Source of the DNA: a virus
Reading direction: 5' to 3' (one strand)
IMG/VR virus record: IMGVR_UViG_3300036832_001355
Location: 1-20,746 of that record
Length of the DNA: 20,746 nt
Positions 1 to 20,746 of this stretch are shown one piece after another; the first letter of the stretch is position 1; every line of letters begins with the position of its first letter. The notes beneath the pieces were generated by a model that ran no database searches, was not told the origin of the DNA, and saw nothing but the letters and a program-made list of their open reading frames with translations. The translations under genes were made by a program, and so were the position numbers.

Positions 1-1467
1 CACCTCGCGCAGATAGCCCTCGCTCGTTTCTTCGGTGCGAATGAGATCGCGGCGATCTTCGATGTTGCGTGACGGCTCGCCGTGTAATTGATTGGCCCAC
101 GCGAGATCGGGAACAAACTTACCGTCGCCTCGACCTACACCGCCGCCCGTGAATTGCTGCGGCGTGTCGGCATCATAACCTTGTTGGCCTGCACCGCCAC
201 CTCGCCGCTGATAAAGCGCAGGCGGCGAAGGCGGCAGGTTTTGGCGCTGGCGATCGATGCGCTGTTGGCTTTGTTCTTCGGTTTCCTGTTGCCCATGTGG
301 CCCAACTGCCCATTGTGCTCCGGGGATAAGCAATCGAAATATCGCCGCGCCGACCGGCGTTAGCTTAAATGCCTCGAAAGCAATTTTGCCCCAATTCGCA
401 TCTTTGATTGCTTGCGTGACTTCGTTGACCTTTTCGATCACCGAATTCAATTGTCCGACCGCGTAGCTCGCAACATCAAGCATGACCGGCTTGAGCTTGA
501 GCATTTCTTCGTTGAGATGTTTCTGCGATTCCGCGACTTTCGCTTGTTGTTCTTGTAACTTACGCTGCGCTTCGATATTCGCCGGATCGGTCATCAACCG
601 TCGTTGCTTTTCAAGTTCTTCGCCGCCATCGCGCATGAAGCGCAAAGTGACGTTCCAATATTGGCCCCACTCGCGCGCGTACTGAGTGTTCTTTTGCGAT
701 TCCCGTCCGATATCGCTCATCATCTTGCGGGCGACTTCTTCGTAAGCCACGCCCTGTTGCAACATTTCGAGATATTTGTTTAGGCCCGCCGGATCGACCT
801 GCATCAAACGTTGAAATAACGGGGCCGCGGCACCTTGCTGCTTCAACGCCGCAAGCTGCTCGACCATCCTGCCGAGAACTTCCTCCCCCTTTTCAGCGCT
901 TTCCCCAAATTCTTCGAAGGCGCGGCCCCAAGCGTTGATCATCACGTTGCTGGTTTCGCCGACCTGCGCTTGAAAATTGCGCATCTGTTGGTAGGCGACG
1001 CGCACGCGCTCGCCCGCCTGATAAATCCCATAAGCGAACGCGCCAACGCCACCAATCGCCGCCGTGGCAATGCCGCCAGCGCGACCAAGCGAAAGCACCA
1101 ACTCGGTCATCTTCGACGCTGCACCAGCGGCAGCCTTTTCCAAGCCGACCGTTTGCCCGGCCAGCCCGCCGAGCTTTGCCGCGAAGTCGACGATGTTTGA
1201 TCGGATCGGCCCACCGACAAATTTCGCAAAGCTCGCCTCGACTTCTTTGATCGAGTTCGGCATCTTGTCCAACGCCTGTTGCATTTGCCGCAACGACGCC
1301 GGAAGTTTTTGCGCATTCTCTGCAACGCTGTGGAACGCGGAGTCGCTCGTCGACCTCAAGACGGCAAAGCGCCGCGTGATGCCGTCAATCTCGTTGGTGA
1401 TCACCAACAGCTTGTCGGACATCTCGTCGGTAAGTGTCAGCGTAACCGATGCGCGTTCGTCGGCCAT
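1..1467 (-). CDS. Tail tape-measure protein, N-terminal part (3' end outside window)
   Basis: The frame is open from an ATG at 1467 to the left edge, giving 489 codons without a stop. The tape measure fills the tail tube, sets tail length and is ejected into the host with the DNA. The product starts MADERASVTLTLTDEMSDKL. It is mostly helical, with a small hydrophobic Gly/Ala stretch at about residues 128-150, Gln/Glu-rich coiled-coil-like helices at about 195-350, and a Gly/Gln/Pro-rich region from about 390 to 450. No enzymatic domain is visible in this part. The ATG lies one base after the stop of the chaperone extension (TAAGATG), so the genes are coupled. The identification rests on position directly after a frameshifting tail chaperone pair, on the helical composition and on the large open size. 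A different large tail protein is possible but less likely. Confidence 0.8.
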   Translation of the reverse strand, partial: MADERASVTLTLTDEMSDKLLVITNEIDGITRRFAVLRSTSDSAFHSVAENAQKLPASLRQMQQALDKMPNSIKEVEASFAKFVGGPIRSNIVDFAAKLGGLAGQTVGLEKAAAGAASKMTELVLSLGRAGGIATAAIGGVGAFAYGIYQAGERVRVAYQQMRNFQAQVGETSNVMINAWGRAFEEFGESAEKGEEVLGRMVEQLAALKQQGAAAPLFQRLMQVDPAGLNKYLEMLQQGVAYEEVARKMMSDIGRESQKNTQYAREWGQYWNVTLRFMRDGGEELEKQRRLMTDPANIEAQRKLQEQQAKVAESQKHLNEEMLKLKPVMLDVASYAVGQLNSVIEKVNEVTQAIKDANWGKIAFEAFKLTPVGAAIFRLLIPGAQWAVGPHGQQETEEQSQQRIDRQRQNLPPSPPALYQRRGGGAGQQGYDADTPQQFTGGGVGRGDGKFVPDLAWANQLHGEPSRNIEDRRDLIRTEETSEGYLREV

Positions 1468-1468
1468 C

Positions 1469-1687
1469 TTAATCGTCCAACGCCGATTCCTGATTGGTCC
1501 GCTCAATCAGCTTGTCCGTCCACATGACGGCACGCTGCAAGTCGGACACAGGTTTTATTAGGAATGTTTCTGGGTCGATCTGATAGAACTTGCCCAACCT
1601 ATAGCAGTGGAGAATCAACTCCCCTGGATTCTCCGCTATAGATCGGGCATGAAAAAATCGGCGAGCAACCACGCGCCGTTGTTCCAA
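1469..1687 (-). CDS. Tail assembly chaperone -1 frame extension (GT/E'-like)
   Basis: This frame lacks a believable start of its own: its first candidate is a TTG at 1687 with no spaced ribosome binding site. It overlaps the end of the upstream chaperone gene by about 50 bases and lies in the -1 frame relative to it. The likely product is a fusion: 147 residues of the upstream gene, then 60 residues starting HARSIAENPGELI after slippage at 1651-1657, ending with TAA at 1469-1471. Gene pairs of this layout (P2 E/E', lambda G/GT, Mu 41/42-region) make a short and a long chaperone that load the tape measure with tube subunits. The tape measure starts one base downstream, as expected for that role. 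Only the part below about 1651 is expected to be translated in this frame. Confidence 0.75.
   Translation of the reverse strand: MEQRRVVARRFFHARSIAENPGELILHCYRLGKFYQIDPETFLIKPVSDLQRAVMWTDKLIERTNQESALDD
1599..1657 (-). promoter_or_regulatory. Programmed -1 ribosomal frameshift signal (slippery site and stem-loop)
   Basis: On the minus strand the upstream frame reads GAT TTT TTC, giving the slippery heptamer T TTT TTC at 1657-1651, phased X XXY YYZ. Nine bases later a stem-loop begins. Its outer arm CTATAGC (1641-1635) pairs with GCTATAG (1605-1599). Its inner arm GGAGAATC (1634-1627) pairs with GATTCTCC (1616-1609). The loop is 10 bases, and one 3-base bulge (ACT) lies on the 3' side. This gives 15 perfect base pairs. 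The zero-frame UAG stop (1638-1636) lies inside the stem. Slippery site, spacer length and stem together match the standard -1 frameshift arrangement. Confidence 0.88.
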
Positions 1688-2091
1688 TCCTTCGGATGCA
1701 TCGATCGGATCGTCGACGGCGGAACGGTCGCAAGCCGCGCCATCATTTGCGTCATGATCCCGGTATCAAAGTGAATCTTCGGCGTGTTCTCATACATACC
1801 GACAAGCACCGGATTGCCGATGCGCTCGATATCGCCAGCCGTGGGCTCACGAAACGTGATCTCCATCGCCGGTTCACCATTGGCGATGACTTGCTTGCGC
1901 AGCACAAGCTTGCCGTCCCACACCGGTTTGCCGTTGACCATCCGCGTAGGCTCTTGCGCGGGGCGATCCGGCGGTGGAGCAGCCTTTGGCTGCCCGTTGC
2001 TCTGTGGCTGCGGCTGCGCTTGCGGCTGCTCTTGCTCCGGCGGAAGTATCGCCCCGTCGAGCGGGACTTGCGGGTTAACCTGATCCACCAT
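1636..2091 (-). CDS. Tail assembly chaperone, E/gp41-like (zero-frame product)
   Basis: This 151-aa protein starts MVDQVNPQVPLDG. Residues 15-50 are low-complexity Pro/Gln. They are followed by a folded part with ITFREPTAGDIERIG, the REPT-x-GD signature I associate with phage tail assembly chaperones of the E/41/14 family. The ATG at 2091 has AGGAGG at 2103-2098, six bases away. The longer frame to 2178 overlaps the previous gene and has no such site, so I reject that start. The chaperone coats the tape measure and recruits tube protein; it is not part of the mature virion. A -1 slip near its end adds 60 residues from the overlapping frame. The Pro/Gln-rich N-terminal tail is unusual for the family. 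Confidence 0.82.
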   Translation of the reverse strand: MVDQVNPQVPLDGAILPPEQEQPQAQPQPQSNGQPKAAPPPDRPAQEPTRMVNGKPVWDGKLVLRKQVIANGEPAMEITFREPTAGDIERIGNPVLVGMYENTPKIHFDTGIMTQMMARLATVPPSTIRSMHPKDWNNGAWLLADFFMPDL

Positions 2092-2107
2092 GAATTCCCT
2101 CCTGTTG

Positions 2108-2368
2108 TTAGGCGTTGCCCTCGCAATGGACGTGGCGCAACGCGCATTCGTCCGCGAACTCCCGTAGCTCGCGGTCAAGTTCGGCGTAGCTGATCTCTGG
2201 CCCGAGACGGCGCTGTGCGCGCGCCATGCTCATCAAAAGATGCTGCGCACCCGCGTAGAACGCGATGCGCATATCGATGATTTCCTCCGGTCGCAACGGC
2301 GCTTGCGCCGCCGCGAATGCTGTAAAGCCCGCCTCGATCAGATGTTGCTCAACGTTGGTCGTGGTCAT
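2108..2368 (-). CDS. Small hypothetical phage tail-region protein
   Basis: This is a helical, charged protein of about 86 aa with a hydrophobic middle (IAFYAGAQHLLMSMARAQRR). Two ATGs are possible. The one at 2374 overlaps the upstream stop (ATGA), but AGGAGG (2381-2376) is only one base from it. The ATG at 2368 has a seven-base spacing and is the better start. The gene sits between the tail tube and chaperone genes, where contractile phages often carry small variable proteins. I do not recognise a named family. A helper role in tail assembly is only inferred from position. Confidence 0.7.
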   Translation of the reverse strand: MTTTNVEQHLIEAGFTAFAAAQAPLRPEEIIDMRIAFYAGAQHLLMSMARAQRRLGPEISYAELDRELREFADECALRHVHCEGNA

Positions 2369-2370
2369 CG

Positions 2371-2532
2371 TCATTCCTCCTGCGGCTCGGCCTTTCGCAC
2401 AACGACATAGCCTTGAGATTCGAGCGCCGATAGGAACGCTTCAACTTCGTCTTCGTTGCAGCCGGGCATGATGCCGCTGTCGTCAAGCGCACGTGCGACC
2501 GCTTGATCGCGCAAAACGTTAGGATCAATCAT
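2371..2532 (-). CDS. Small hypothetical protein between tail tube and chaperone genes
   Basis: This 53-aa acidic protein starts MIDPNVLRDQAVARALDDSG. Its ATG at 2532 shares a base with the tail-tube stop (TAATG), which points to translational coupling; there is no strong ribosome binding site of its own. An alternative ATG at 2553 would add seven residues and overlap the tube gene more. The gene ends in an ATGA overlap with the next small gene. Its C-terminal half (DEVEAFLSALESQGYVVVRK) looks like a small helix-strand unit. No family is recognised. Confidence 0.65.
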   Translation of the reverse strand: MIDPNVLRDQAVARALDDSGIMPGCNEDEVEAFLSALESQGYVVVRKAEPQEE

Positions 2533-2897
2533 TACGGATTGATCTCGACGCAAGTCGTGCCTTCGAACCGAATCCGCGTTTGACCTTCACGCGTATTCAA
2601 TTCGAATGCCGAGCGACACCATGCCTCTTTGAGCGAGTACGTCTTGCCGTTGGCAAGCTCCGCCGTCACCACGGAATTGACGATGTTCGATACGTCTTCC
2701 ATCGACAATTCGGGCACGAGCGACACGTCGCCTTCGATGTACGGCACTCTTGGCAACTCGGAAAACCCGTGCACATAATCCTGCCCGGCGATTCCCGCGC
2801 GCTCCGTCGGCGACGGTGACACCGTGAAGTTTCCGCGAAGCGGATACAAGTCGCCATCTACTTTGAGAAACGCAATTCCCGCTATCCGTTGGGCCAC
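2532..2897 (-). CDS. Phage tail tube protein (Mu gpM-like)
   Basis: This 121-aa protein would polymerise into the inner tube of the contractile tail, inside the sheath. It begins MAQRIAGIAFLKVDGDLYPL and contains NFTVSPSPTERAGIAGQDYV and a beta-rich C-terminus, matching the pattern of the Mu-type tube family (120 residues is also the usual size). The start is a GTG at 2897, supported by AGGAGG at 2908-2903 with a five-base spacer. A nearby ATG (2899) is in another frame. In Mu-like tails the sheath gene directly precedes the tube gene. Here the same order holds, but a plus-strand zinc-ribbon gene is lodged between them. Confidence 0.85.
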   Translation of the reverse strand: MAQRIAGIAFLKVDGDLYPLRGNFTVSPSPTERAGIAGQDYVHGFSELPRVPYIEGDVSLVPELSMEDVSNIVNSVVTAELANGKTYSLKEAWCRSAFELNTREGQTRIRFEGTTCVEINP

Positions 2898-2902
2898 ATT
2901 AG

Positions 2903-2908
2903 CCTCCT
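2903..2908 (-). promoter_or_regulatory. Shine-Dalgarno site for the GTG-started tail tube gene
   Basis: AGGAGG lies five bases before the GTG at 2897 and fixes that start. On the opposite strand it directly abuts the ATG (2909) of the zinc-ribbon gene, so the two divergent genes are packed with no spare bases. Confidence 0.7.
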
Positions 2909-3235
2909 ATGCCAGCGTTGAAGCGATGCACGAAATGCCGCCGCCGTTTTCCGAAGACGCGCGCACATTTTTATTTGTATTGGTGGAGACACGATTTCTT
3001 GCGGCCGATGTGCAAAGACTGTTGTCGTAAGCATCATCGTCGCTACATGCGGACGCATCCGCACAAGAACCGCGAGTACAATCAGCGCGACTATCGCAAG
3101 CATTCACACAAGCGCATTGCCCGCGTGATGGCTTACTATTGGGAGATCAGGAAAGACTCGCGCCGCCATGCCGCTTATCTTGCCAAGCGGCGCGAGCAAC
3201 ATCGTCAACGAGTCGCGCGAGGATGGACTCGTTAG
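2909..3235 (+). CDS. Zinc-ribbon protein, HNH/endonuclease VII-like (plus-strand insertion)
   Basis: This very basic 108-aa protein starts MPALKRCTKCRRRFPK. Cysteines at 7, 10, 35 and 38 form CxxC...CxxC, and the second pair sits in MCKDCCRKHHRRYMRTHPHK. That layout is common in small phage proteins related to the zinc-binding part of endonuclease VII and HNH nucleases; whether this one has nuclease activity is unknown. It is one of few plus-strand genes and lies between sheath and tube genes. Its TAG stop (3233-3235) overlaps the sheath TAA (3234-3232) in the 4-bp TTAG. Its ATG touches the tube gene's ribosome binding site, and no ribosome binding site of its own is visible. It looks like a mobile, homing-type intruder. 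Confidence 0.72.
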   Translation: MPALKRCTKCRRRFPKTRAHFYLYWWRHDFLRPMCKDCCRKHHRRYMRTHPHKNREYNQRDYRKHSHKRIARVMAYYWEIRKDSRRHAAYLAKRREQHRQRVARGWTR

Positions 3236-7565: not shown

Positions 7566-9401
7566 TCATGCCACGCGAAGGAATTCTTCGAACAGGCCGC
7601 GCACTTCGAGCGCGTGCTCGGTGCCATTCGACATCTTGGCGATGATGCGGAAGTTCGCGCGATCGACATCGAAACCGGCAAAGCTCACGCCCGCCTCACC
7701 GCGTTCGCCCTTGAGCCCTTGCTCGCCGGGCAAACCCTTCTCGCCCTTCTTTCCCGGCGACGCGACAAGCTGCCAATCCGGGCCGGGGCATTCGCCCGGA
7801 TTCTCCTTCCGAGCGATAAATGATCCGCCGTTGCACGCCACGAGATCGCGGGCGTGGTAGCTCTCGCTTTCGTCATAGGTGCCGCGGATCACCATGTCCC
7901 GGCCCGGCGTTCCGGCAGCGGCTATCAGTTGCCAACCCTCACCGCCGGGAACCGACTTGAGATCGCACAACGCTTGGAAGCATTCGCCGCCATAGGTGAC
8001 GCATGCCCCCGCATAGGTGATTTCGTCTTGCCGCCAGATTTTGACTGACGGCAGAAATCCGTTCGGTCCGCGCTCACCGCGCTCGCCGCGCTCACCACGC
8101 GCGCCGTCTTTGCCGTCGAGGCCATCACGGCCATCGACACCGCTCGCGCCGCGCTCGCCGCGCGCACCTTGCTCGCCGCGCAGCCCGCGCGTGCCGGGCA
8201 AACCTTGGACGCCGGGTAAACCGCGCTCGCCGTGCTCGCCGCGTGCCCCTACGTCGCCTTTTTCACCCTTGGGGCCTATGACTGTCTCGCCGCGCTCGCC
8301 GCGCGCACCAGCGACGCCCGTATCGCCTTTCTCGCCGCGCTCGCCGCGTTGACCGGCTTCGCCGCGCACGCCGCGTTGCCCGATTGGGCCGATCTCGCCG
8401 CGCAGGCCGAATTCGCCGCGTTCGCCTTTCTCGCCGCGCTCGCCCTTCTCGCCACGTTCACCGACCGCGCCAGGATCGCCCTGCTTGCCGATCAAACCGG
8501 GCTCACCTTGCTCGCCGCGTTCGCCCTTCTCGCCGAGAGCGCCGGGCTCGCCGCGCTCGCCACGCTCGCCACGCTCGCCGGGCTGTCCCTGCTTACCCTC
8601 GGGCCCCGGCTCGCCACGCTCGCCGGATTGACCTTGCACGCCGGGCTCGCCGCGCTCGCCGCGCTCGCCCTTTTCCGGCATGTCGATTTTCGCGACCGCT
8701 TTGTCGATCGCGGTATCAATGTAATGCATCGCGTGGTGCTCAAGCTTATCGAGCACCACCGGTTGAATGACTCGCGACACGAGTTCGGGATCGGCGGATT
8801 CGCCGCGATCGCCCTTGTCGCCCTTCTCACCGCGATCGCCACGCTCGCCACGGATGCCGCGCGTACCGGGTTGCCCCGGCTCGCCGCGCTCACCACGTTG
8901 GCCGGGAGGGCCAGCCGGGCCGGATTGACCATCTGCGCCATCCCTCCCGGCCGGTCCGCTCGCTCCGGTATCACCGGGCGGGCCGGGAGGGCCGCGCTCA
9001 CCCGGAGAACCATCACGACCGGCAGCACCGGGGTCGCCCTTCTCACCGCGCGGGCCGGGATTCCCGCTCGGTCCAGATGATCCCGGTTGCCCGTCACGCA
9101 CGACGGCAAGGCGAGCATCGATGATCTCGCCCTTGTCCGTCATGAAGCCTTCGATGCGGCGCAGTAGCTCGGAATTCTCGGCACGCAAATTAGCGATCGC
9201 AATGCTCGCGCTCGCAACCACTGCTTTCGCGGTCGCGTCGATAAGCTCGATCCTGCGCTCCGCTTCGCGCTGTACGTCGTCGAGAATTAGACCGATTGCT
9301 GCTTTGATACTGTTAGGGATTAAAGCGAGCGCATTCGCCGCGGCTAATTCGGCTCTGGCTTGCCCATCCTCGTAATTCTCGTGCGATGATATCTGTGACA
9401 T
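7566..9401 (-). CDS. Collagen-like fibre protein with two CBM5/12-like segments
   Basis: This 611-aa protein has a helical, coiled-coil-like N-terminus (about 10-98). It is followed by Gly-X-Y triplets at about 104-201 and 244-448, broken by a helical segment at 202-243. Next come two short segments, ITYAGACVTYGGECFQALCD and SYHARDLVACNGGSFIARKE, each ending in a WQLIA/WQLVA motif. Such pairs resemble small carbohydrate-binding (CBM5/12) modules. A last Gly-X-Y patch lies at 549-571 and a small tail completes the protein. Triplets are rich in GERGE/GEKGE, which can stabilise a triple helix without hydroxyproline. It would form a trimeric fibre. Its place between portal and connector genes suggests a head- or neck-attached fibre rather than an ordinary tail fibre. 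The ATG at 9401 overlaps the portal gene by 89 bases and has GAGG just upstream. Confidence 0.85.
   Translation of the reverse strand: MSQISSHENYEDGQARAELAAANALALIPNSIKAAIGLILDDVQREAERRIELIDATAKAVVASASIAIANLRAENSELLRRIEGFMTDKGEIIDARLAVVRDGQPGSSGPSGNPGPRGEKGDPGAAGRDGSPGERGPPGPPGDTGASGPAGRDGADGQSGPAGPPGQRGERGEPGQPGTRGIRGERGDRGEKGDKGDRGESADPELVSRVIQPVVLDKLEHHAMHYIDTAIDKAVAKIDMPEKGERGERGEPGVQGQSGERGEPGPEGKQGQPGERGERGERGEPGALGEKGERGEQGEPGLIGKQGDPGAVGERGEKGERGEKGERGEFGLRGEIGPIGQRGVRGEAGQRGERGEKGDTGVAGARGERGETVIGPKGEKGDVGARGEHGERGLPGVQGLPGTRGLRGEQGARGERGASGVDGRDGLDGKDGARGERGERGERGPNGFLPSVKIWRQDEITYAGACVTYGGECFQALCDLKSVPGGEGWQLIAAAGTPGRDMVIRGTYDESESYHARDLVACNGGSFIARKENPGECPGPDWQLVASPGKKGEKGLPGEQGLKGERGEAGVSFAGFDVDRANFRIIAKMSNGTEHALEVRGLFEEFLRVA
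8058..9092 (-). repeat. Gly-X-Y coding DNA, degenerate 9-base tandem repeats
   Basis: The collagen-like triplets are encoded by a long run of degenerate 9-base units read as CGCGGCGAG or GGCGAGCGC on the minus strand, with breaks at the non-collagen segment (about 8673-8798). Such DNA can gain or lose units in frame by slippage. The long plus-strand Ala/Leu-rich open frames here are shadows of this repeat. Confidence 0.8.
8733..8759. repeat. Perfect 9-bp inverted repeat inside the collagen-like gene
   Basis: GTGGTGCTC (8733-8741) and GAGCACCAC (8751-8759) flank a 9-base loop. It lies in the non-collagen segment and encodes part of VVLDKLEHHAMH. There is no T-run, so it is not a terminator. 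It may be chance or may affect the message. Confidence 0.5.
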
Positions 9402-11128: not shown

Positions 11129-12139
11129 TTACTCCTTGGTTAAACTCCGCCGTTGCGCGAATGCGCTTGGCCAATCTCCAACGGCGATCTGCTCGCAGAG
11201 TTTCATCGCCGGATACCACGGGCAACCGTTATGCCATCGCCACGTCTTCGCAAAGGGGAGCATGGCGAAGATATTCGGGTGCCCGATCGCGCCGGTTATG
11301 TGCAGTGCACCGGTATCGATCGATACGATTTCGTCCATCAACGAGGCAACGGCTGCAACGTCGGCATAATCGGCATATTCGAATGCCGTAACGCCACATC
11401 CAACCGCCTGCTCTCGATCGTGGCCCTGTAAGCTAAACAGCGCGCAATCATCAGCACCGAGAAGTTGTAAAAACTGAACGGCCGCGATTGATCGCTCTCC
11501 GTTGGCGTGCTCGCCGAAGTGCGAGGTGTTGCTTGACCACGCGATGCCGATTTTCTTTTTACCGCCATTGCCAACCCTTTCTGCCCATTGCCTGCGCAGC
11601 GCCGCCTCTACGTCGAGATACGGCGGCGGCGGGATCGTATCGATCGATTGATGCAACAATGCAACGAGATCGAACGTCGCGCAGTAGTAATCGACTTCGC
11701 TATCGCTCGATACCGGCGCGAGTTGTGCGGCGACGCGCGCGAGCGCGGGCGGAACGTCGAGCACCACGTCGATGCCCATCGCCTTGAGCATCGGCACATA
11801 GCGCAGAAACATGATCGTGTCGCCGTAGCCTGCTTCGTGCATGACCACGAGCCGCTTGCCGCTGATATCTTCGCCGCGCCACTGCGGCACGCCCGGCCGC
11901 TCCGGCGTCGGAAAGTATGGCCGCCGGGTGTCAATCTCGGCAAAGCCCTCGGCATAGCGCCCGAGCGCGAGCAGGGTGAGCACGCGGTTCCAGCGCGCGA
12001 GCGGCCTATCGCGAATTGCGATCGCCTGATCGAACTCGACCAGCGCCGTGGCAAAGTCGTTGCGCCACAGATACTCGACGCCTTGCGCGACGTGCAGGCC
12101 GTAAATGTCCGGCACTATGTTCGACAAAACGCCAGCCAT
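11129..12139 (-). CDS. TPR protein with GT9-like glycosyltransferase domain
   Basis: This 336-aa protein has a short TPR-like helical region (about 15-75: YLWRNDFATALVEFDQAIAI, LTLLALGRYAEGFAEID). It is followed by a Rossmann-type half with RLVVMHEAGYGDTIMFLRYV (about 96-115) and a second half with IGIAWSSN (197-204) and SIDTGALHITGAIG (273-286), then MLPFAKTWRWHNG and PWYP. This layout matches TPR proteins whose C-terminal part resembles GT9 heptosyltransferases (GT-B fold). A sugar-transfer role is likely, but donor and acceptor are unknown. It lies in the head operon between methyltransferase and portal, an unusual site. The ATG at 12139 has no clear ribosome binding site; the HNH gene directly upstream faces away and may have displaced it. 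Confidence 0.75.
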   Translation of the reverse strand: MAGVLSNIVPDIYGLHVAQGVEYLWRNDFATALVEFDQAIAIRDRPLARWNRVLTLLALGRYAEGFAEIDTRRPYFPTPERPGVPQWRGEDISGKRLVVMHEAGYGDTIMFLRYVPMLKAMGIDVVLDVPPALARVAAQLAPVSSDSEVDYYCATFDLVALLHQSIDTIPPPPYLDVEAALRRQWAERVGNGGKKKIGIAWSSNTSHFGEHANGERSIAAVQFLQLLGADDCALFSLQGHDREQAVGCGVTAFEYADYADVAAVASLMDEIVSIDTGALHITGAIGHPNIFAMLPFAKTWRWHNGCPWYPAMKLCEQIAVGDWPSAFAQRRSLTKE

Positions 12140-12168
12140 TGAATCGGCTCACTGGTCCGCGCTATGTT
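12139..12168 (+). promoter_or_regulatory. Weak candidate promoter for the HNH-AP2 gene
   Basis: TTGAAT (12139-12144), an 18-base spacer and TATGTT (12163-12168) match four of six bases at each element of a sigma-70-type promoter. Transcription would begin at or near the ATG at 12174, giving a leaderless message. It sits over the start of the divergent TPR gene. The match is weak and could be chance. Confidence 0.2.
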
Positions 12169-12173
12169 TTTGC

Positions 12174-12677
12174 ATGGCCGATTCTCTTTCCCCATCTCGC
12201 CTGCGGCATTTGCTTTCCTATGATCCGAAGACGGGCATTTTCCGTTGGCGCGTTGATCCGCCACGCGGCACCAAACGCAAAGGAACGCTCGCGGGAAGCG
12301 TTCGTCCAAAACCGGACGGCCGTCGCGCAATCATGATTGACAAACGAATGTTTTTCGCTGGCCGGTTGGCGTTTCTATACATGACAGGCAAATGGCCGCG
12401 TCAATTGGTAGATCACGCAAACGGCGTTCCGGATGATGACCGATGGTGCAATCTTCGTGAGGCCGATCATTCGCAAAATGCCGCAAACAGTCGCGGGCAG
12501 AAGCAACGCTTGTCGCCGTTCAAAGGCGCATATTGGGACAGGGGCAAATATACTGCTCAAATTATTGTTCGTGGTCAGCGCATCTATCTCGGTCGTTTTA
12601 TCTTAGCCAAAGAAGCTCATGCCGCCTATATCCACGCCGCTCGACGGTTTTTCGGAGAGTATGCACGCGCGTGCTAA
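12174..12677 (+). CDS. HNH homing endonuclease-like protein with AP2 domain
   Basis: This 167-aa protein starts MADSLSPSRLRHLLSYDPKT. It has the HNH_3-type region LVDHANGVPDDDRWCNLREA (about 78-97) with D80-H81, N93, H99 and N102 as candidate active-site or metal residues, then an AP2-type DNA-binding part at about 115-165 (FKGAYWDRGKYTAQI, IYLGRF, KEAHAAYIHAARRFFGEYAR). This is the standard HNH-AP2 homing architecture of phages; it would nick or cut an uninserted allele. It is on the plus strand between the methyltransferase and TPR genes. Its TAA (12675-12677) shares CTAA with the methyltransferase TAG. I prefer ATG 12174 over an upstream ATG at 12105, which would run into the TPR gene. No ribosome binding site is obvious. 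Confidence 0.88.
   Translation: MADSLSPSRLRHLLSYDPKTGIFRWRVDPPRGTKRKGTLAGSVRPKPDGRRAIMIDKRMFFAGRLAFLYMTGKWPRQLVDHANGVPDDDRWCNLREADHSQNAANSRGQKQRLSPFKGAYWDRGKYTAQIIVRGQRIYLGRFILAKEAHAAYIHAARRFFGEYARAC
12663..12674. repeat. 12-bp palindrome at the convergent HNH / methyltransferase stops
   Basis: GCACGCGCGTGC is a perfect palindrome ending at the shared stop region. It has no loop and no T-run, so a terminator role is unproven. Confidence 0.35.
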
Positions 12678-13300
12678 GTGCGCATGAAAGCTAACCACGT
12701 CGAATCAACTTGTTGGATCGGCCAACCGTCAAAGCTGAGCCGATCGAGCACGCGCGTCACCTCGACCGCGTGGTTGACGTAATCGTGCCAAATGATCATC
12801 CCGCCGGGTCGCACCAAGGCCCGCGCGAGTTCGCTATCGTGGGTCACGACACGTTCGCTGTGATCGCCGTCGATAAACGCCGCATCGCACGGCTCTAAAT
12901 CGCGCTCGGTAAGATCGAGCGAGCCGCAGGGACGAAGCACAAGCTCGAAACGCGGATCGCTAAACGCGCGCCAGCCGGGATTTGGCACCATCTCGCTTCG
13001 TTGGTGCCGCAATCCCGGTTGATAGGACATCGGCACGTCAATGCCGATGTAGCGTTCAAGCGTCGGCACGTTGTGCAGCAACACGCATGCGGTGCGCCCA
13101 TCACGACAACCGAATTCAATCATGGTCTTGGCATTCACGCTGCGCACGAGCGCCGCGATGATTTCCATCTCACCGTCGCCAAGGTAGTTACGCGAGAGCC
13201 CAAGCCAATTGATCGGCCAGAGATCGAGCGTTTCCTTGGCGACGGTTGATAGCAAGGTCGGAGAGTCGCGTTTACCAAGCCACGTTTTGGACAACCGCAA
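12674..13300 (-). CDS. Class I SAM-dependent methyltransferase
   Basis: The product (up to 208 aa) has motif I as TMIEFGCRDGRTACVLL (about 59-75), an acidic strand end at IGID (85-88), and a late motif DAAFIDGDHSERVV (139-152) followed by LVRPGGMIIWHDYV. The IDGDH...GG...HD pattern is typical of small-molecule or sugar O-methyltransferases of the Methyltransf_24 kind, not of DNA methylases, because no DPPY-type motif is visible. It lies next to the TPR-glycosyltransferase gene, so joint modification of a glycan is plausible but inferred. The start is unclear: the first candidate is a TTG at 13300 that overlaps the capsid gene by 29 bases; no good ribosome binding site is seen. Its TAG shares bases with the HNH gene stop. 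Confidence 0.78.
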   Translation of the reverse strand: MRLSKTWLGKRDSPTLLSTVAKETLDLWPINWLGLSRNYLGDGEMEIIAALVRSVNAKTMIEFGCRDGRTACVLLHNVPTLERYIGIDVPMSYQPGLRHQRSEMVPNPGWRAFSDPRFELVLRPCGSLDLTERDLEPCDAAFIDGDHSERVVTHDSELARALVRPGGMIIWHDYVNHAVEVTRVLDRLSFDGWPIQQVDSTWLAFMRT

Positions 13301-15716
13301 CCATGCCCGCGCGTCGCATCGTCCAGTTGACTCTGTAGATAAGTCGAAGCGCGAGCGAATCCGTCTGCCATAGACTCCTTACGGGAGTCGCAGGCGATGG
13401 CGTACCGCCCGTGATAGGCTGCGGGTTCGTGTCTTCCTCGTGTATGGTCGCGGTGTCACTAATTTCAAAACGGGGAGCTTCCTCTCCGGCCGTCACGAAG
13501 TCTGCGGCGTCGACGACACCAACCGAGTTGAGCGGCATGGTGCCAGAATCGATCACCGGCCAGCCGTTGAGTTGTCCGCGGTTGAGTTCCTCTTTGAACG
13601 CCCATGCTCCGGTCGGGAACGTGATGAACTTAGCGGAGTTCATGTTGCTCGGATTGATGAGCCACGCCGGTTTGCGGATATTGCCCTTCGTCGCGACCAT
13701 CAGCGCATTGGACAAGTTTTTCAGATCGCCGACAATCGCCGCGAATGCCCCGCCAGTGATCGGCGTCGGGGTGATCGGCGTCACGCCGTTGAACAACCCG
13801 GCAGGCCGGATCGTCGTCGCCGGATTGGTGTCGACGAGAATCGAGTCGAGCGACACCGCCGTATCTTCCTGCACCGCTAGTCGCAACAAACCCTCGATCG
13901 CAGGAATCGAATGCTCATCTAATTCGCGAGTCCAGGTCGTGATCACGGCCATTTTTTTCGGAGTTAAGATTTGCGCGACGAACTGTCCCTGCCTTACGGG
14001 AATCGGCATCCCTTCTCCAACGAACGATCCGGCGATCGTCGGCGTTGCCGCCCGCGTCGGAATACTAATCCGACCGGCGCGGCCGAATTGCAGCGCGAGC
14101 CCGAGCGCGGACAAGCGCGGGAAGATCGAGGTGGGCATCAAGAGTTGCATGAAATCTGAATAGATGGTTTCCACCAACTCCGCGGCCCAACCGGTCACCG
14201 TGGTCATCGCCGGATTTGCCGCCGCACGCGTCATCCAATCGACCGCAGCGCGCGTGCGATCGTCGCTGTAGGGCGGATAGGCGCGGCAGATTTCCTCCGG
14301 CGCGCGGTTGAACACCTTCGAAAGATACGTGACCACGCCAGCGCGGATCATGTAATCGAGCGGTTGAAGCTCTTTCTTGCCGCTCGTCTTTTGGAAGAAT
14401 TGCTGGCGGCGCTCGCGTTCCTCGTCGTCGATATTCGCATTGCGATTCCCGTTGAGGCCATTCGCCCGCGCGGGTAGCCGGTGCTCGCGGCCGTTCGTGC
14501 CGTCCGCCGTTCGCGCAGTCTGCGCAACATACTTTTCGGATTCGCGCAGGCTTTCGAGCAACCGGGTCTTCGCCGCGATCTGAGCGTTGAGTACGTTGTT
14601 CGCCTCAACCTCTTTGTCGGCGACGTTGTTGTCGTCCATCTTGTCGATATTGGCGTTGAGTTCGTCGGTGAGCCGCACAATGTCGGCTTCCGTATCCTGA
14701 ATGCGTTCTGCGAGCGACATAGCGCTGCTCCTTCTATTGCGATGTGAAGTTGCGTCTTTCGTCCGCCTTTCGCGGGCATGCTCGCCCCGGCGCACAATCA
14801 CGGTCTTTTCGTCGGCGTGCTCGCCAAAGACCATGCGTTGAGTTTCAGACGAAATGTTTAGGCTCTTTGCCACCGCCAACGCGTTCGGGTTGGCGGGAAT
14901 GCTCACGAGGGAGCACTCAACCAATTCCTGTTGCAGATAGCGCATCGGTCCGAAGCCGAACGGATCGCGCCCATTGTCTTCGGTGAGCGGTTCTTTCTTG
15001 ATCGCTTTGAAGCCGACCGATACCGCCTTGAGAATCCCCGCGTCGTGCAATGCGCGAATCTCATCGAGGCGAGCCGATGCACCCTTCGGCGCGAGCACGA
15101 GCCGCGCGCGCAAATCTTTATCGTCGTTTCGAATCCCGGCCCACGTTCCTATGGGAAAATTTGCGTCGTGGTTGAACAATGCGATGGGATGGCGCTTGAA
15201 ATGCTCGTAAATCCACCCCCTCGGTTCCACAATATCGCCGAACCGATCTGGCGTCGCATCCGAGAGAATGAATTCCTTGCCATCGGTGATGATCTTGCCA
15301 TCGTGCTGCTTGAGCACGAGCCCGTTATCGCGCGCGCCGGATTCCTCGTTGTAATCCTGCCACGCGAGTTCGCAGGCATCGTCGGCGTCGTCGTCGTCCA
15401 CACCGTTGTCGGTCAATTCCTCCGAACACCGCGACATGAACTCATCTTTACTTTCGCCTTCCTCGACTTCGGGCACATCCATCGCACTGCCCTGCTTGGC
15501 GAGCAGCCTGCACCACAGCTTGACGATGCGTCGAACTTCGTCGGCGGATTTCTTCGGCTTGGCGCTGCCCGGATGTTCCTTGCGCCATTCGCTAAGACAA
15601 GCGGCGACTGCTTGCTCCTGCGGGCGCTTGTTCTCACCCGTGCCAATCATCTCAGGGACGCAATAACTCATGTAATCGGATTGCGACTCACCTTTTCGCG
15701 GTTTACGGAGCGGCAT
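13272..15716 (-). CDS. Prohead protease fused to scaffold domain and HK97-fold major capsid protein
   Basis: One 814-aa frame carries several parts. Two related Cys-containing helical repeats come first (about 5-45 with KGESQSDYMSYC; 83-122 with EGESKDEFMSRC). An HK97-type prohead serine protease follows (about 135-285), with likely catalytic His in FNHDANFPIG (H183) and Ser in AVSVGF (S233), then CSLVSIPANPNA. A coiled-coil, delta/scaffold-like part lies at 333-400 and the HK97-fold capsid at about 495-814, ending VVQNVAW. In most phages protease and capsid are separate genes; here no stop separates them. The ATG at 15716 follows TGAGGTG. An internal ATG (14720) with AAGGAG could also give a separate scaffold-capsid chain of 482 residues. 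The protease would trim the scaffold part during maturation. Confidence 0.88.
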   Translation of the reverse strand: MPLRKPRKGESQSDYMSYCVPEMIGTGENKRPQEQAVAACLSEWRKEHPGSAKPKKSADEVRRIVKLWCRLLAKQGSAMDVPEVEEGESKDEFMSRCSEELTDNGVDDDDADDACELAWQDYNEESGARDNGLVLKQHDGKIITDGKEFILSDATPDRFGDIVEPRGWIYEHFKRHPIALFNHDANFPIGTWAGIRNDDKDLRARLVLAPKGASARLDEIRALHDAGILKAVSVGFKAIKKEPLTEDNGRDPFGFGPMRYLQQELVECSLVSIPANPNALAVAKSLNISSETQRMVFGEHADEKTVIVRRGEHARERRTKDATSHRNRRSSAMSLAERIQDTEADIVRLTDELNANIDKMDDNNVADKEVEANNVLNAQIAAKTRLLESLRESEKYVAQTARTADGTNGREHRLPARANGLNGNRNANIDDEERERRQQFFQKTSGKKELQPLDYMIRAGVVTYLSKVFNRAPEEICRAYPPYSDDRTRAAVDWMTRAAANPAMTTVTGWAAELVETIYSDFMQLLMPTSIFPRLSALGLALQFGRAGRISIPTRAATPTIAGSFVGEGMPIPVRQGQFVAQILTPKKMAVITTWTRELDEHSIPAIEGLLRLAVQEDTAVSLDSILVDTNPATTIRPAGLFNGVTPITPTPITGGAFAAIVGDLKNLSNALMVATKGNIRKPAWLINPSNMNSAKFITFPTGAWAFKEELNRGQLNGWPVIDSGTMPLNSVGVVDAADFVTAGEEAPRFEISDTATIHEEDTNPQPITGGTPSPATPVRSLWQTDSLALRLIYRVNWTMRRAGMVAVVQNVAW
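14718..14733 (-). promoter_or_regulatory. Internal ribosome binding site and ATG for the scaffold-capsid half
   Basis: AAGGAG (14733-14728) lies seven bases before an in-frame ATG (14720-14718) starting MSLAERIQDTEADIVRL, exactly where the coiled-coil scaffold domain begins. The site is as good as those of bona fide starts nearby. It would allow high-level capsid synthesis independent of the protease, similar in logic to nested protease/scaffold genes such as lambda C/Nu3. Confidence 0.65.
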
Positions 15717-15725
15717 AGCGGCACC

Positions 15726-16817
15726 TCACCAAATGGCGTTCTGAATCCAACTGACGCCTAACGGAGAGCGCAGCGCCCATGACACCGGCAACTCCATTTT
15801 CGTTGCGACGCTCGCGGTCTGGAACATCGATGACACCGGCACCGCCAAGCTTCCGCCCGAGCCGATCGCCGCCGGAGTATCGGACATGTGCAGCGACGCG
15901 CTGGTCGAGGCTTCGAATTCCGGTGCACCCATTGCCGCCACGACGGCATTGCATGCGACGGCGATCGCGGTGCCAGGAGGCACGGTGCCCGACGGAATCA
16001 AGATGACATCTTCCGCCTGTCGATAGGTGCGATACGCGAGCGAGATATACTGCGCGACGTTCATGATCAGCGCGATCGGACCAGCGCCCGACACCGGACC
16101 GATCCCCGCGCCGAGCGCGATCAAATCCTCCGTCGCCGCCTCGGTCTTGCTGGTGCCAGCGCCGCCGGTCGAGGGTGTGATCGGCGTCACGTTGTAAAGC
16201 AGCCCCGGCGGATGCGAGGCGTCGCCCGCGCTATTGGAAAAGACCACGGCATCGAGCAGCGGGCCCGCGCTTTCGGCGAGCAATTGTTGGATGACGGTTT
16301 CGACCGACGCCTGCGAATAGAGTTCCGACGACGCGACGGCGATGCCTGCGACCTTGTGCGGATCGATCCGCTGTGCCGTGCTCGATCCCTGCAACACCGG
16401 CTTAGGCGCGCCGGGCGCGACGAACTTCACGCCAACCGGCGCAATATTCGGAATGACGTAGCCGCCCGCTTCGCGCGTCAAGGTGAGCTTGAGTGTGTGA
16501 TTGAATAATTGCGCAGCGGCCGAAAATGGCGCCAGCAACGGAAACACGGCGAGCGCGACCTGCACGAGCGCCGACGTGTTGGTCATATCGAGCGGTACGG
16601 TCGCGGCGCGCAGGATCAATTGTGCATCGGCATCGAACGGCCATTGCTTTTCCGCGTGCTCCCACGCCTTCATCGATTTGTCGATGCGCGCATGCCCGCT
16701 TGCGACGGCCGCGCGCACGATCGAGCGTAGCGGATCGCGCGTGAAGGGCGGCGGACCGCCCTTGCGATCGAGCGGCGCGGCACGCTGAAAATCTTCGCGT
16801 GATCTGGCGAGGTTCAT
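15726..16817 (-). CDS. Second HK97-fold capsid paralogue
   Basis: This 363-aa protein lacks a protease part. From about residue 115 it parallels the capsid half of the downstream fusion: PPGLLYNVTPITPS here versus PAGLFNGVTPITPT there; an APEFEAS...LHMSD stretch versus APRFEIS...TIHEE; and ends WIQNAIW versus VVQNVAW. Spacing and secondary structure also match, so both are HK97-fold paralogues, although overall identity looks low. The N-terminal 75 residues are helical and charged. It could be a minor capsomer, vertex or second shell protein; sequence alone cannot say which of the two is the main subunit. The ATG at 16817 overlaps the previous stop (ATGA), and its stop is nine bases before the fusion gene. 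Confidence 0.8.
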   Translation of the reverse strand: MNLARSREDFQRAAPLDRKGGPPPFTRDPLRSIVRAAVASGHARIDKSMKAWEHAEKQWPFDADAQLILRAATVPLDMTNTSALVQVALAVFPLLAPFSAAAQLFNHTLKLTLTREAGGYVIPNIAPVGVKFVAPGAPKPVLQGSSTAQRIDPHKVAGIAVASSELYSQASVETVIQQLLAESAGPLLDAVVFSNSAGDASHPPGLLYNVTPITPSTGGAGTSKTEAATEDLIALGAGIGPVSGAGPIALIMNVAQYISLAYRTYRQAEDVILIPSGTVPPGTAIAVACNAVVAAMGAPEFEASTSASLHMSDTPAAIGSGGSLAVPVSSMFQTASVATKMELPVSWALRSPLGVSWIQNAIW

Positions 16818-16981
16818 TTGCGCTTATCCTTCGATTTCGCCTTCGCCTTCGCGCGATGGCGCTCGCGAATCTCTTTCGCCTTGTCCTGATTTTTCTGCGC
16901 CGGGCTCAACCAGTGCGCGCCCGTGCGCATATCGGTTTCGAGCAGATCGATGTGCACGTCTTTCGGTTTTTCTTTTGCCAT
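16814..16981 (-). CDS. Small basic protein (55 aa) in the head operon
   Basis: The product starts MAKEKPKDVHIDLLETDMRT and ends in a Lys/Ala/Arg-rich helix (KAKAKSKDKRK). The ATG at 16981 overlaps the upstream stop (TGATG) and its own stop overlaps the capsid paralogue's ATG (ATGA), so it is translated within the coupled run. The strongly basic tail could bind DNA or acidic parts of the neighbouring effector protein; this is only suggestion. A longer frame to 17092 overlaps the ADP-ribosyltransferase gene and is rejected. No family is recognised. Confidence 0.65.
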   Translation of the reverse strand: MAKEKPKDVHIDLLETDMRTGAHWLSPAQKNQDKAKEIRERHRAKAKAKSKDKRK

Positions 16982-19005
16982 CACGCTGCCTTCGGTAATG
17001 CCGCGTTTTCGCCGATGCCGGTGCCGTTTGCGCCTATCGGGATTTCGTCGAACGACGGCGCTTTGCCGATCCACGCATCCCATGCTTTCCAAGCCGTTCC
17101 GGCGATGACCACTTCGTGCTCGCTATGGATGTTGATGCCATAGGCCGGGACCGACACCGCCGCGGTGCGTGGCACTTGCGCGCGCAGCACAACGCGGTTC
17201 ATATCGCCATCCCAACCGCTCGCCACGCCGTTGTCGCTACTGGTCGAGGCCGCGCCGTTGCGATCGATTTTGATGGTCGGTGCCTTGCGATATTCGCCGA
17301 CATTGACCGCCGCCGCGCGCACCGGATCGAGCTTGTCATTGGTGAGCTTGAGGCCGCGATAAAGGTGCAACGTTTGCAGCCCGGCCTTGTCGAGCATGTA
17401 TTGCGTCACTTCCCACTTGGCGCGCAAGTAAGCCTTGAGCCCGAGATAGCCGCCGATGTCGTCGTAACGTTGATTGGCGGTCGCTTTCAAATCGTTCGGG
17501 TCGATTTCGCTTTGCGGATGGGTCTTATAGTTGAGCCGCCCGCCGAGTTCTTCGGCCGTGACCAGTTGCAGCAATTTCCCGTTCTCAGAAGTCGACGAAC
17601 TTTTCCAATCCGACCAAAGACGATTATCGATGCGGGCGAGTTCGGCCCTCACTGTTTCATCGCTCTTGTCTTCGATGTCGGGAATCTTCCGCTCTCGCAG
17701 CACTTGCAGCGCGCGCTCGACCGAGAGATAGCGCGCCATCGCTTGCGTGTTCCTGTAATCCGTTCCGCTCGTATCGTTGAGCGGATCGTATTTTTTCGGG
17801 ATAGCGATCGGCCCTTCTATTTTTTCCGGCTTGTCCTTCTCGGTTGCACCGCCAGCATATTGGCCGGTGCCCTCGGTGCTCTCGTCGCTAACAACATCGG
17901 TATGCTGTTTGGCAAATGCGAACTTGTCTGCATCCGACATCTGCCCCCATTGTTCCTCCATGAATTCCTTCGCGCTGTCGGCGAGATAATCGGGCGGCTC
18001 CATATCTCCCGCCTTTTTCTCGGCTTGTTCGCCGAACGCTTTGGTCAACGCCGCGCTGATATCGTCGCGCATTTCCTTGGTTAGCAGTTTCGAATAATCG
18101 GGCGGCTCGAAACCGGGCAATTGCTCCTGCCCTTCGCCTTCATGATGCGCCTTGCCCGCCGCATTCAATTTCTCATCGTCGAATTCGACCTCGAAATGCT
18201 TTTTCCAATATGATCCGCCGCCGTATCCGCCGCCTTCGATGGCGTCGCCGCTTAGCGTGATCGCGTCGAGCAATTCGTGATTGCCGAACGGAAAGCGCTG
18301 CTCCATATCGTTGAGCGCATCCATCGCCCACTGATTGTCGTCGCTGTTTTTGTCTTTGTTGAATTCTTCCGCGACTTGCATACGCGCATCCTCTTGCGCC
18401 TGTTCGTTGAAATAGTTTTCATTTTCGGAATCGATGTAGCTCTGCAAATTTTGGTCGTAATAGGCTTCCTCGACGCTGCTCTGTCCGCTGTTAGAAAGCG
18501 ATTCCCATTCCTCCGGCTCGAATGGCGGCTCGCCTTCGTCTTCGTCGGCAGGATCGCCCTCCGATACCGGCGCAACCGGAGTGGCACCGGTTTTTTCCGG
18601 CGCTTCGGTCGCGAGCTTATCGACCTTCGGCCGCGCGATCTGATAGTCACGCTCTAGCTTGCGCGCCGTCGCTTTGTTCCATTCGTCGCCGCCGACGGAG
18701 ATCACTTCGGGCGTTAACTTCGGCTCGGCAGCGCTTGCTTCGCTCTCGCTCTCGCCGCCGCCGCCACCTTCGCCGAATTGCCCGCCCTCTGACGATCCTG
18801 CGGGCACGCGCGGATGCTTCGACTCGTCCCAATCCTTTTGCGTCTTTGCTTCGGCCGCGGGCACGAGAAACACCGCGCCGCCTTCTTCGTCGGTAAACGT
18901 GAGCTTGATCAGCGATGCCGAAGCCTGATCATCAACCAACTCGAATTGATTATTGAGATACGCGGCGATTGCCGGGCGTCCATTGACATTGACGCTCTCG
19001 ATCAT
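16981..19005 (-). CDS. Putative virion-associated ADP-ribosyltransferase effector
   Basis: This 674-aa acidic protein has a small N-terminal domain (1-55), the linker WDESKHPRVPAGSSEGGQFG (59-78) plus a Gly run, a long acidic low-complexity middle (about 85-450, many Asp/Glu/Gln), and a C-terminal domain with the R-S-E ADP-ribosyltransferase signature. Visible elements are R550 in LYRGL, S587-T588-S589 in AASTSSDNG, and E629-H630-E631 (ExE) in SEHEVVIAG. ExE is typical of enzymes that transfer ADP-ribose from NAD to arginine. Head-module location recalls T4 Alt and MuF-linked toxins that are packaged and injected; packaging here is inferred. It shares an ATGA overlap with the upstream gene and the same linker motif. 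The target is unknown, and no immunity gene is evident beside it. Confidence 0.8.
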   Translation of the reverse strand: MIESVNVNGRPAIAAYLNNQFELVDDQASASLIKLTFTDEEGGAVFLVPAAEAKTQKDWDESKHPRVPAGSSEGGQFGEGGGGGESESEASAAEPKLTPEVISVGGDEWNKATARKLERDYQIARPKVDKLATEAPEKTGATPVAPVSEGDPADEDEGEPPFEPEEWESLSNSGQSSVEEAYYDQNLQSYIDSENENYFNEQAQEDARMQVAEEFNKDKNSDDNQWAMDALNDMEQRFPFGNHELLDAITLSGDAIEGGGYGGGSYWKKHFEVEFDDEKLNAAGKAHHEGEGQEQLPGFEPPDYSKLLTKEMRDDISAALTKAFGEQAEKKAGDMEPPDYLADSAKEFMEEQWGQMSDADKFAFAKQHTDVVSDESTEGTGQYAGGATEKDKPEKIEGPIAIPKKYDPLNDTSGTDYRNTQAMARYLSVERALQVLRERKIPDIEDKSDETVRAELARIDNRLWSDWKSSSTSENGKLLQLVTAEELGGRLNYKTHPQSEIDPNDLKATANQRYDDIGGYLGLKAYLRAKWEVTQYMLDKAGLQTLHLYRGLKLTNDKLDPVRAAAVNVGEYRKAPTIKIDRNGAASTSSDNGVASGWDGDMNRVVLRAQVPRTAAVSVPAYGINIHSEHEVVIAGTAWKAWDAWIGKAPSFDEIPIGANGTGIGENAALPKAA
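18754..18831 (-). repeat. Linker motif copy C (in the ADP-ribosyltransferase gene)
   Basis: It encodes WDESKHPRVPAGSSEGGQFG followed by EGGGGG, near-identical to the copy at 19812-19892 and to the partial copy at 20704-20746. It separates the N-terminal domain from the acidic region. Confidence 0.85.
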
Positions 19006-20746
19006 GCCGTGCCCTTGTAAACTTTCTCGACCGTTCGGTAGAGATCACGCCAGCGTTTCGCGTTTGCATCGATGACCGATTGCGGCGGCTTTGGCTTGTC
19101 CTCACCGCGATACGCGATGATGCCTTCGCCGTAGTGATTGGGGAATTTCCCCGTTTCGTATTTGATGCGCCCCATCTCGGCGAGCGTTTCATGCACAGCA
19201 AGTTCAAACTTGACGGTCGCCTGTTTGAAGCCCTTCCAATACTCGTAGCTGTATCCGGACACGCCGTCGGCGTCGGCGAATTCATCCCACGAGTAGGTGC
19301 GGAAATTTTTCTCCATCGCCTGATAGTTCGGATATTTCTTGTCGTAAGGCGGCCACAACGTGCCGTCCGGCCGCATCACCGCGTCTTTGCCGCCGCGTTG
19401 CTCCCACCAATGCTCGCTGTTCGGATTGGGCGGCGGGCCGGGATCGGCCATCATCGCCGCGGCTTCCTTTTGATATTTGTCGAGCGCAGTTTGGAATTTT
19501 TGGTGTTCGACTTCGTGCGCGGTGACGCCCTTCGTCAACTCATATTCGGTAATCTGTTGCGGGAAAAGCTTGATTGCTCCTTGCATCGGTCCCGTGGTGT
19601 AAGCCAGTCCGGCCGCTAAATATTCCTTACCGTTAAGCGTGAACTTGACACCCGGCGTTGCTTCATTGCGACCAATCGAAACCTTGCTCGGATCATAGCC
19701 AAGCTCTTTTGCCACTGCGCGCCCGGTATGCAAAACCAATTTCACATGCGCGGCTTCGCGCTCGCGCTCGGCGTCATCTGGCCTTGTGCCTTCGCCTTCG
19801 CCTTCGCCTTCGCCTCCGCCTCCGCCGCCTTCGCCGAATTGCCCACCATCGGGTGAACCGGCGGGAACGCGCGGATGTTGGCTTTCGTCCCATTCGAGCA
19901 GAATGAGTTCGATCTCGCGATCGGTGAGCCCAAGCTCTAATCCGGCCTCATCGTTTTGCCAGATCGCTTCGCAATCCTCGACCGTGAGATCGAGCGAGAG
20001 CGCGAGCGGCCCGCGGAAATCTTTCTTGCCCGCGGGTTTCTTGCCCTTGCCGCCGGTAAATTTCTCGGCTTCGTCCAGCAGCGTGATGATATCGATATCA
20101 ACGCGCGAGACGCGCATCTTGGTGTCGTTGTCAAGCTTGTTGTCTTTGGCGTCGAGCGCGAGCTTCGCCGCCCAATGGTGATGACCGTCGACGATATAGT
20201 TATCGCGCGAGACAACGAGTCGCTTTTCCAAGCGCTCCGGTTCGTCTTTGTTGCGCTCGATATTGATGACGACTTTTTCCGCCGAGAGTTGGTTTTGCGT
20301 CGCGCGTAGGTGCGATGCAAGCTCGCGATCCTTCTCGACTTTGTATCCCTTGTCTTTCAGATATTGGATGAACGCCTTTGTTTGTTTGGTGTTCATCTGC
20401 GGCATCTCGACTCGCGGGATGCCCTTCGTCTCGGCGCAGAAAAGATTCGTGCCCTTGATCGTGACGTTGCAGAGATCGAACAGCGGCGGCGCTTCGCCCT
20501 GCTCGTGATAGCGTTTCATCGTTTGGCCGAGCAGCTTGATCAGAGTCGCAACCTGCTTCGGCTGCTTCAACTCGACCTTGCGATTTTCAAATAGCGCGCG
20601 CTGCGCGTCATAGACGTTAGAGGTGTGAATCACGCCGCGCTTGTCGAGGCGCGCGTCTTTCGAATAGCCGGGGCCGGGATGCCCCTCGGTGTCGCCGCCG
20701 TCACCGCCGCCACCTTCGCCAAACTGGCCGCCCTCGGATGATCCGG
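19002..20746 (-). CDS. Polyvalent head protein with ParB-like and HEVEH zincin domains (5' end outside window)
   Basis: The frame has no stop up to the right edge, so the gene is truncated there; a GTG at 20633 is internal, not the likely start. Domains in order are: (1) a linker-motif end (20746-20704); (2) a domain with LFDLCNVTIKGTNLFCAETK and IVDGHHHWAA (20195-20166), the ParB/sulfiredoxin-like core seen in C-terminal parts of phage MuF/head proteins; (3) a second linker motif (19892-19812); (4) a domain with GVTAHEVEHQKF, HEVEH at 19517-19503, a zinc metallopeptidase motif, and a downstream HETLAEMGR that may supply the third ligand. The mixed architecture fits polyvalent proteins packaged in heads to act early in infection. 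The ParB box has His where Arg is more usual. Substrate and activity are unknown. Confidence 0.78.
   Translation of the reverse strand, partial: GSSEGGQFGEGGGGDGGDTEGHPGPGYSKDARLDKRGVIHTSNVYDAQRALFENRKVELKQPKQVATLIKLLGQTMKRYHEQGEAPPLFDLCNVTIKGTNLFCAETKGIPRVEMPQMNTKQTKAFIQYLKDKGYKVEKDRELASHLRATQNQLSAEKVVINIERNKDEPERLEKRLVVSRDNYIVDGHHHWAAKLALDAKDNKLDNDTKMRVSRVDIDIITLLDEAEKFTGGKGKKPAGKKDFRGPLALSLDLTVEDCEAIWQNDEAGLELGLTDREIELILLEWDESQHPRVPAGSPDGGQFGEGGGGGGEGEGEGEGTRPDDAEREREAAHVKLVLHTGRAVAKELGYDPSKVSIGRNEATPGVKFTLNGKEYLAAGLAYTTGPMQGAIKLFPQQITEYELTKGVTAHEVEHQKFQTALDKYQKEAAAMMADPGPPPNPNSEHWWEQRGGKDAVMRPDGTLWPPYDKKYPNYQAMEKNFRTYSWDEFADADGVSGYSYEYWKGFKQATVKFELAVHETLAEMGRIKYETGKFPNHYGEGIIAYRGEDKPKPPQSVIDANAKRWRDLYRTVEKVYKGTA
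19788..19823 (-). repeat. In-frame hexamer repeat in the Gly/Glu linker
   Basis: On the plus strand GCCTTC occurs four times (19788-19811), then GCCTCC twice (19812-19823), encoding alternating Gly-Glu and Gly-Gly next to the linker motif. Six-base units keep the frame if gained or lost. Confidence 0.7.
19812..19892 (-). repeat. Linker motif copy B (between ParB-like and zincin domains)
   Basis: It encodes WDESQHPRVPAGSPDGGQFG followed by a Gly run. It joins two unrelated domains of one protein, which marks it as a module boundary. Confidence 0.85.
20704..20746 (-). repeat. Linker motif copy A (partial, at the window edge)
   Basis: It encodes GSSEGGQFGEGGGG before the window ends, matching the last part of copies B and C. 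It implies a further domain upstream of the ParB-like domain, outside the window. Confidence 0.8.

Follow-up and report, generated by a model that had tools for sequence, protein, structure and literature searches.

A probable programmed −1 ribosomal frameshift site with a lineage-conserved hairpin in the tail assembly chaperone gene of an uncultivated phage

We found a site in a tail assembly chaperone gene that is very probably a programmed −1 ribosomal frameshift signal of the λ G/GT (P2 E/E′) kind, accompanied by a hairpin conserved in the lineage of the phage. The site lies in IMG/VR virus record IMGVR_UViG_3300036832_001355, whose 20,746 bases were analysed as a whole (hereafter the window), and all features of the signal are on the minus strand. 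The source is an uncultivated contractile-tailed phage. A −1 frameshift signal in the tail chaperone genes had been proposed in an earlier, sequence-only reading of this DNA, and the gene family, a conserved heptamer and an open −1 frame now lend it support. Moreover, the hairpin is backed by evolution, beyond fold prediction alone.

The chaperone gene, the slip site and the −1 frame

The zero-frame gene (1636–2091) runs from an ATG at 2091, with a Shine-Dalgarno sequence AGGAGG upstream, through 151 codons to a UAG stop at 1638–1636, and its product (MVDQVNP...ADFFMPDL*) is a G-like tail chaperone. It matches Pfam PF10109 Phage_TAC_7 (E=3.2e-8, 33.9 bits against a cut-off of 25), a model named for tail assembly chaperones E, 41 or 14, and also the tail protein family phrog_166 (E=8e-11). 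Upstream are the tail tube (PF10618) and tail sheath genes, and downstream is the gene of the tape measure protein (1–1467; phrog_1068, E=2e-6), which runs off the window. The same tube-chaperone-tape order is found in SfV, SfII, BgVeeders33, DVM-2008 and AH07. The tail chaperone identity assumed in the sequence-only reading thus agrees with Pfam, PHROGs and the position of the gene between tail tube and tape measure, on which the assignment rests.

The slippery heptamer U UUU UUC, also claimed by that reading to be in the right phase, is located at 1657–1651, 22 nt from the end of the chaperone gene, and is read in the context GCC GAT TTT TTC ATG CCC GAT CTA TAG. Eight in-phase X_XXY_YYZ sites (Y = A/T) exist in the genes of the window, and this is the sole U-only one. 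After the shift, a T-like extension in the −1 frame (1469–1651) would add 60 residues (HARSIAENPGELILHCYRLGKFYQIDPETFLIKPVSD...ALDD*) to 147 from the zero frame, and our recomputation therefore returned the 207 residues previously given for the fusion. The tape measure ATG at 1467 comes just after the stop of the T frame. Sequence, phase and gene identity are established here.

Two IMG/VR scans yielded 61 distinct segments containing the gene end; that of the window and two bacterial contigs are among them. In nearly all of them a U6C or U7 heptamer, at the same place in most of the related loci, precedes a −1 frame of about 50–75 codons with the extension motif CYRLAKYY..DP..FL; loss of the heptamer in related phages, which had been named as a refutation, is thus not what is seen. 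Four loci (L002, L003, L017 and L018) carry an AAAUUUY heptamer instead, L020 and L042 have the weaker, non-canonical sites TTTCTTC and TTTCTTT, and L007 has a run of eight U's. Over 28 codons from CYxL the −1 frame is open in 40/40 cluster representatives, and the same codons contain stops in 26 (frame 0) and 32 (frame +1) of the 40. Pairwise mismatch at the three −1-frame codon positions is 0.40/0.26/0.63, that is, variation biased to the third position. The overlapping frame is open, and these patterns indicate selection on it at the protein level, so that the conservation of heptamer and −1 frame can be regarded as established. A search of genome_contigs for relatives gave only three distant matches, in Chelatococcus, Bosea and Bradyrhizobium, and a DNA-level search of annotated phages gave none. 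One segment stands out: in L027 (1745–2319) the −1 frame is about 161 codons long and includes another chaperone-like domain (LRKEIVVDGKTLDVVSFREPTADDIEEFG), which looks like a duplication of the chaperone gene across the shift site.

We consider two other routes into the −1 frame very improbable: slippage during transcription of the U run, and independent translation initiation of the T part. RNA polymerase could slip on a run of six U's, or on the eight found in L007, but the four AAAUUUY loci, with AAATTTCTTC, have no run longer than three and keep the same −1 frame; RNA-polymerase slippage therefore does not explain the family. The stem described below is retained at these AAAUUUC/U sites, which argues for a ribosomal rather than a transcriptional slip. 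As for separate initiation, we read no conserved start codon with a Shine-Dalgarno sequence opening the T part.

The hairpin and its conservation

The sequence-only reading described a stem of 7 + 8 perfect pairs broken by a three-base bulge, nine bases after the heptamer. All of these pairs are correct: CTATAGC (1641–1635) pairs with GCTATAG (1605–1599), and GGAGAATC (1634–1627) pairs with GATTCTCC (1616–1609). However, the lower helix comprises 15 pairs, not 7, formed by UGCCCGAUCUAUAGC (1649–1635) and GCUAUAGGUUGGGCA (1605–1591) and including two G·U pairs. The whole hairpin thus has 23 pairs (15 lower and 8 upper) and a predicted energy of −35.2 kcal/mol. In the RNA, the upper stem consists of GGAGAAUC (1627–1634) and GAUUCUCC (1609–1616), closed by a 10-base apical loop, CAGGGGAGUU (1617–1626), in the centroid structure, and the bulge ACU (1606–1608) lies on the 3′ side between the two stems. 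By reading, no run complementary to the apical loop, as a pseudoknot partner would be, is found just downstream. The zero-frame stop (1638–1636) falls in the 5′ arm of the lower stem, inside the stem as had been claimed, and the 3′ arm encodes CYRLGK in the −1 frame. The nine-base spacer (1650–1642) belongs to the originally noted 7-bp stem and applies only once the ribosome has opened the base of the helix. The full helix begins 1–2 nt downstream of the heptamer, closer than the usual 5–9 nt (PMC7618472), which speaks against the signal unless this base is opened; the spacer would then be about 5 nt.

The fold is unusually stable for its composition. The 56-nt hairpin stretch has z = −4.2 relative to dinucleotide shuffles (0/200 as stable), and the whole fold has z = −4.8 when the downstream codons are recoded synonymously (1/3000 as stable). 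The codon choice of the 3′ arm alone favours pairing with the 5′ arm (z = −3.65), and an equally stable fold results from only 13 of 3000 synonymous 3′ arms. Among 13,790 windows of 62 nt on both strands, only 33 are as stable as the hairpin, and part of these fall in GC-rich repeats, for instance those of the collagen-like gene. A strong hairpin close to a gene boundary might also be a transcription terminator or another non-recoding element, but we give this hardly any credence: the hairpin lies inside a conserved reading frame and the window matches no curated Rfam family. The terminator reading was rejected, as no U tract follows the hairpin and a terminator scan of 1000–3000 finds none.

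The 5′ arm lies in the conserved codons of MPDL* and the 3′ arm in those of CYRLxK, so the lower-stem pairing could follow from the proteins alone. The frameshift would then be real and the hairpin incidental, with U6C slippage by itself setting the ratio of the products. We therefore set the pairing against synonymous recoding of the 3′ arm, using codons drawn from each locus's own usage in 40 clusters; L027, with its much longer −1 frame, and the distant L092 were excluded from the tests. The mean z was −1.42; 18 of the 40 clusters fell below −2, one exceeded +1 and none exceeded +2 (Wilcoxon p = 3e-6). When 3′ arms were swapped between phages, own arms gave −13.4 and swapped arms −10.5 kcal/mol (p = 5e-5, the smallest value that 20,000 permutations can give), and the p-value was unchanged within identical 5-aa peptides; the p-values are optimistic, as the clusters are not phylogenetically independent. 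Control arms 5, 7, 9 and 11 codons further downstream gave mean z of −0.39, −0.04, 0.06 and 0.21. A compensatory change is seen at pair 1639–1601, which is A–U in the window and L036 and G–C in most others, and its 3′ change in the window is synonymous (Tyr TAC to TAT). The lower stem occurs in two registers: loci with CYxLG have a continuous outer helix, and those with CYxLA have a one-base shift and a bulged A.

On the tree, the stem is present in nearly all of the window's clade and patchy in its sister clade, and 17 of 36 clusters with a U6C/U7 site show no significant pairing. The cut-off for stem presence (z < −1.4) was picked after the values had been seen; neither the mean z nor the Wilcoxon and swap tests depend on it. 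The hairpin is not essential to the family, as the outer clade and the SfV-like phages have the stem in some members only or not at all. Two ideas about the hairpin-less loci were rejected. Clusters without arm pairing do not in general carry a substitute structure (another strong structure in only 2/18; mean z −0.35), and hairpin-less sites do not use the more slippery U7 in place of U6C (Fisher p = 0.74). That lack of association, and the many relatives and SfV-like phages that presumably shift without such a hairpin, are what an incidental hairpin would lead us to expect, but the pairing-favouring synonymous codons, the poorer pairing of swapped arms, the null controls and the scarcity of equally stable synonymous arms in the window make it unlikely. 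On this comparative evidence, selection on the lower stem is established, and we regard the 15-bp helix as a conserved stimulator of the window's phage clade, acting on a slippage that is itself deduced.

The upper stem has a different history. The nearest relatives (L003, L017 and L018) lack 12 nt present in the window, and this insertion brings GGAGAAUC, complementary to the adjacent GAUUCUCC; the upper stem is hence a lineage-specific extension of the conserved helix. No exact copy of it occurs in any other IMG/VR record. The 8-bp upper stem is thus a recent extension, for which a template switch during replication would be a simple origin. L022 and L026 carry inserted upper stems of their own, by eye. 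The expectation that the pairing be kept in relatives is accordingly borne out for the lower stem in the window's clade, by the compensatory and synonymous-codon evidence, and fails for the upper stem.

Comparison with known systems and a proposed mechanism

Frameshifting by −1 in tail chaperone genes has long been known (Xu et al. 2004, as cited in PMC5009743 and PMC3483164), and the site in the window is a new, well-supported example of this device. In λ, which resembles the window in gene position, −1 direction and the common N-terminus of the short and long forms, the ratio of G to GT is near 30:1; each of them binds the tape measure protein, and the tail tube protein is the partner of the T part (PMC5009743). 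The λ heptamer is G GGA AAG (PMC7618472) instead of U UUU UUC, its protein family and tail type differ, and the λ site is not defined by a strong conserved hairpin such as the one described here. P2 gene E, whose record annotates a −1 shift (E+E'), is likewise a short tail gene that directly precedes the tape measure gene and carries a U6-type heptamer, but the heptamer is U UUU UUG (TTTTTTG) and the predicted downstream fold differs. SfV, SfII, EPP-1, AH07, DVM-2008 and BgVeeders33 have a homologous chaperone (about 30–35% identity to that of the window) with TTTTTTC at the same place, an open −1 frame of similar length and the gene order of the window, but no counterpart of the hairpin. The records of these six phages do not annotate the −1 extension, which occupies the interval up to the tape measure gene, as a fusion. 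We found no in-phase −1 heptamer in gp41 of phage Mu, for which a −2 shift has been reported (PMC2628397).

Simple stem-loop stimulators are also used by HIV-1 gag-pol and E. coli dnaX, whose sequences and genes are unrelated to those of the window. The HIV-1 element has a similar architecture, with two stems, a three-base bulge, a lower stem formed from the spacer and a stable upper stem (PMC7618472), but the lower stem of the window, at 15 pairs, is much longer. The dnaX site additionally uses an upstream Shine-Dalgarno sequence (PMC3711429), and none is evident in the window. The sequence-only reading held that many tail cases have no clear stimulator; this needs a caveat, since predicted stem-loops after tail frameshift sites have often been reported for individual phages (PMC3483164). 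We found no covariation-supported stem for this chaperone gene in the open literature, which is weak evidence of novelty.

A stem-loop after the slip site makes the ribosome pause, can keep tRNA from binding in the A site and favours slippage, and stem length and loop outweigh raw stability for frameshifting (PMC8861025). What follows on slippage and its efficiency, on the geometry of the ribosome and on what the two proteins do is inferred. Most ribosomes would end at the UAG at 1638, giving the 151-aa protein. Others would be halted by the hairpin while on U UUU UUC; both tRNA-Phe would slip back by one base, and reading on in the −1 frame would yield the fusion. With the heptamer in the P and A sites, roughly the first five nucleotides of the helix would already be open (about 5 nt of mRNA lie between the A site and the entry), so that about 18 pairs would remain at the mRNA entry, facing the helicase. 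By analogy with λ, the short form may coat the tape measure protein and the extra domain of the fusion may recruit tail-tube subunits.

It is conceivable, as a tentative extension of this scheme, that the −1 shift within this clade is set by the MPDL*/CYRL(A/G)K arm helix, and that repeated loss of it or extension by an upper stem (the window, L022 and L026) tunes the chaperone ratio. If so, turnover of the stimulator would adjust this ratio while the slip site and the proteins stay fixed, perhaps serving adaptation to tail length or host. With similarly low confidence, the clade with the arm-to-arm helix might be placed among Mu/SfV-like contractile phages. The same slip site with and without a hairpin in close relatives offers a natural series on the contribution of a stimulator to U6C, which also bears on how phages hold the ratio of short to long chaperone.

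Other genes of the window

The window has several further features. A single 814-aa frame (13272–15716, minus strand) fuses a prohead protease (PF04586) and a major head protein. It is preceded on the same strand by a 363-aa frame (15726–16817) whose product shares 30% identity with the capsid part of the fusion (E=2e-22), and the two form tandem capsid-like genes. Long collagen-like Gly-X-Y repeats (PF01391, seven stretches) mark a 611-aa protein encoded at 7566–9401 (minus strand) within the head-tail gene block, adjoining the portal gene. On the opposite strand of the structural operon are an HNH endonuclease gene (12105–12677, plus strand; PF13392) and a gene for a Cys-rich, basic 108-aa protein without a family (2909–3235, plus strand), both of which are likely inserted genes. 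The HNH gene is flanked, between portal and capsid, by a frame weakly resembling glycosyltransferase family 9 (11129–12139, minus strand) and a Methyltransf_24 methyltransferase gene (12674–13300, minus strand). Two long frames (16981–19005 and 19002–20744, minus strand) have no Pfam match and have in common a motif like ES(K/Q)HPRVPAGS(S/P)(E/D)GGQFGEGGGG. The C-terminal stretch of the former looks like an ADP-ribosyltransferase by eye (LHLYRGLKL ... SEHEVVI), and the latter holds an HEVEH motif.
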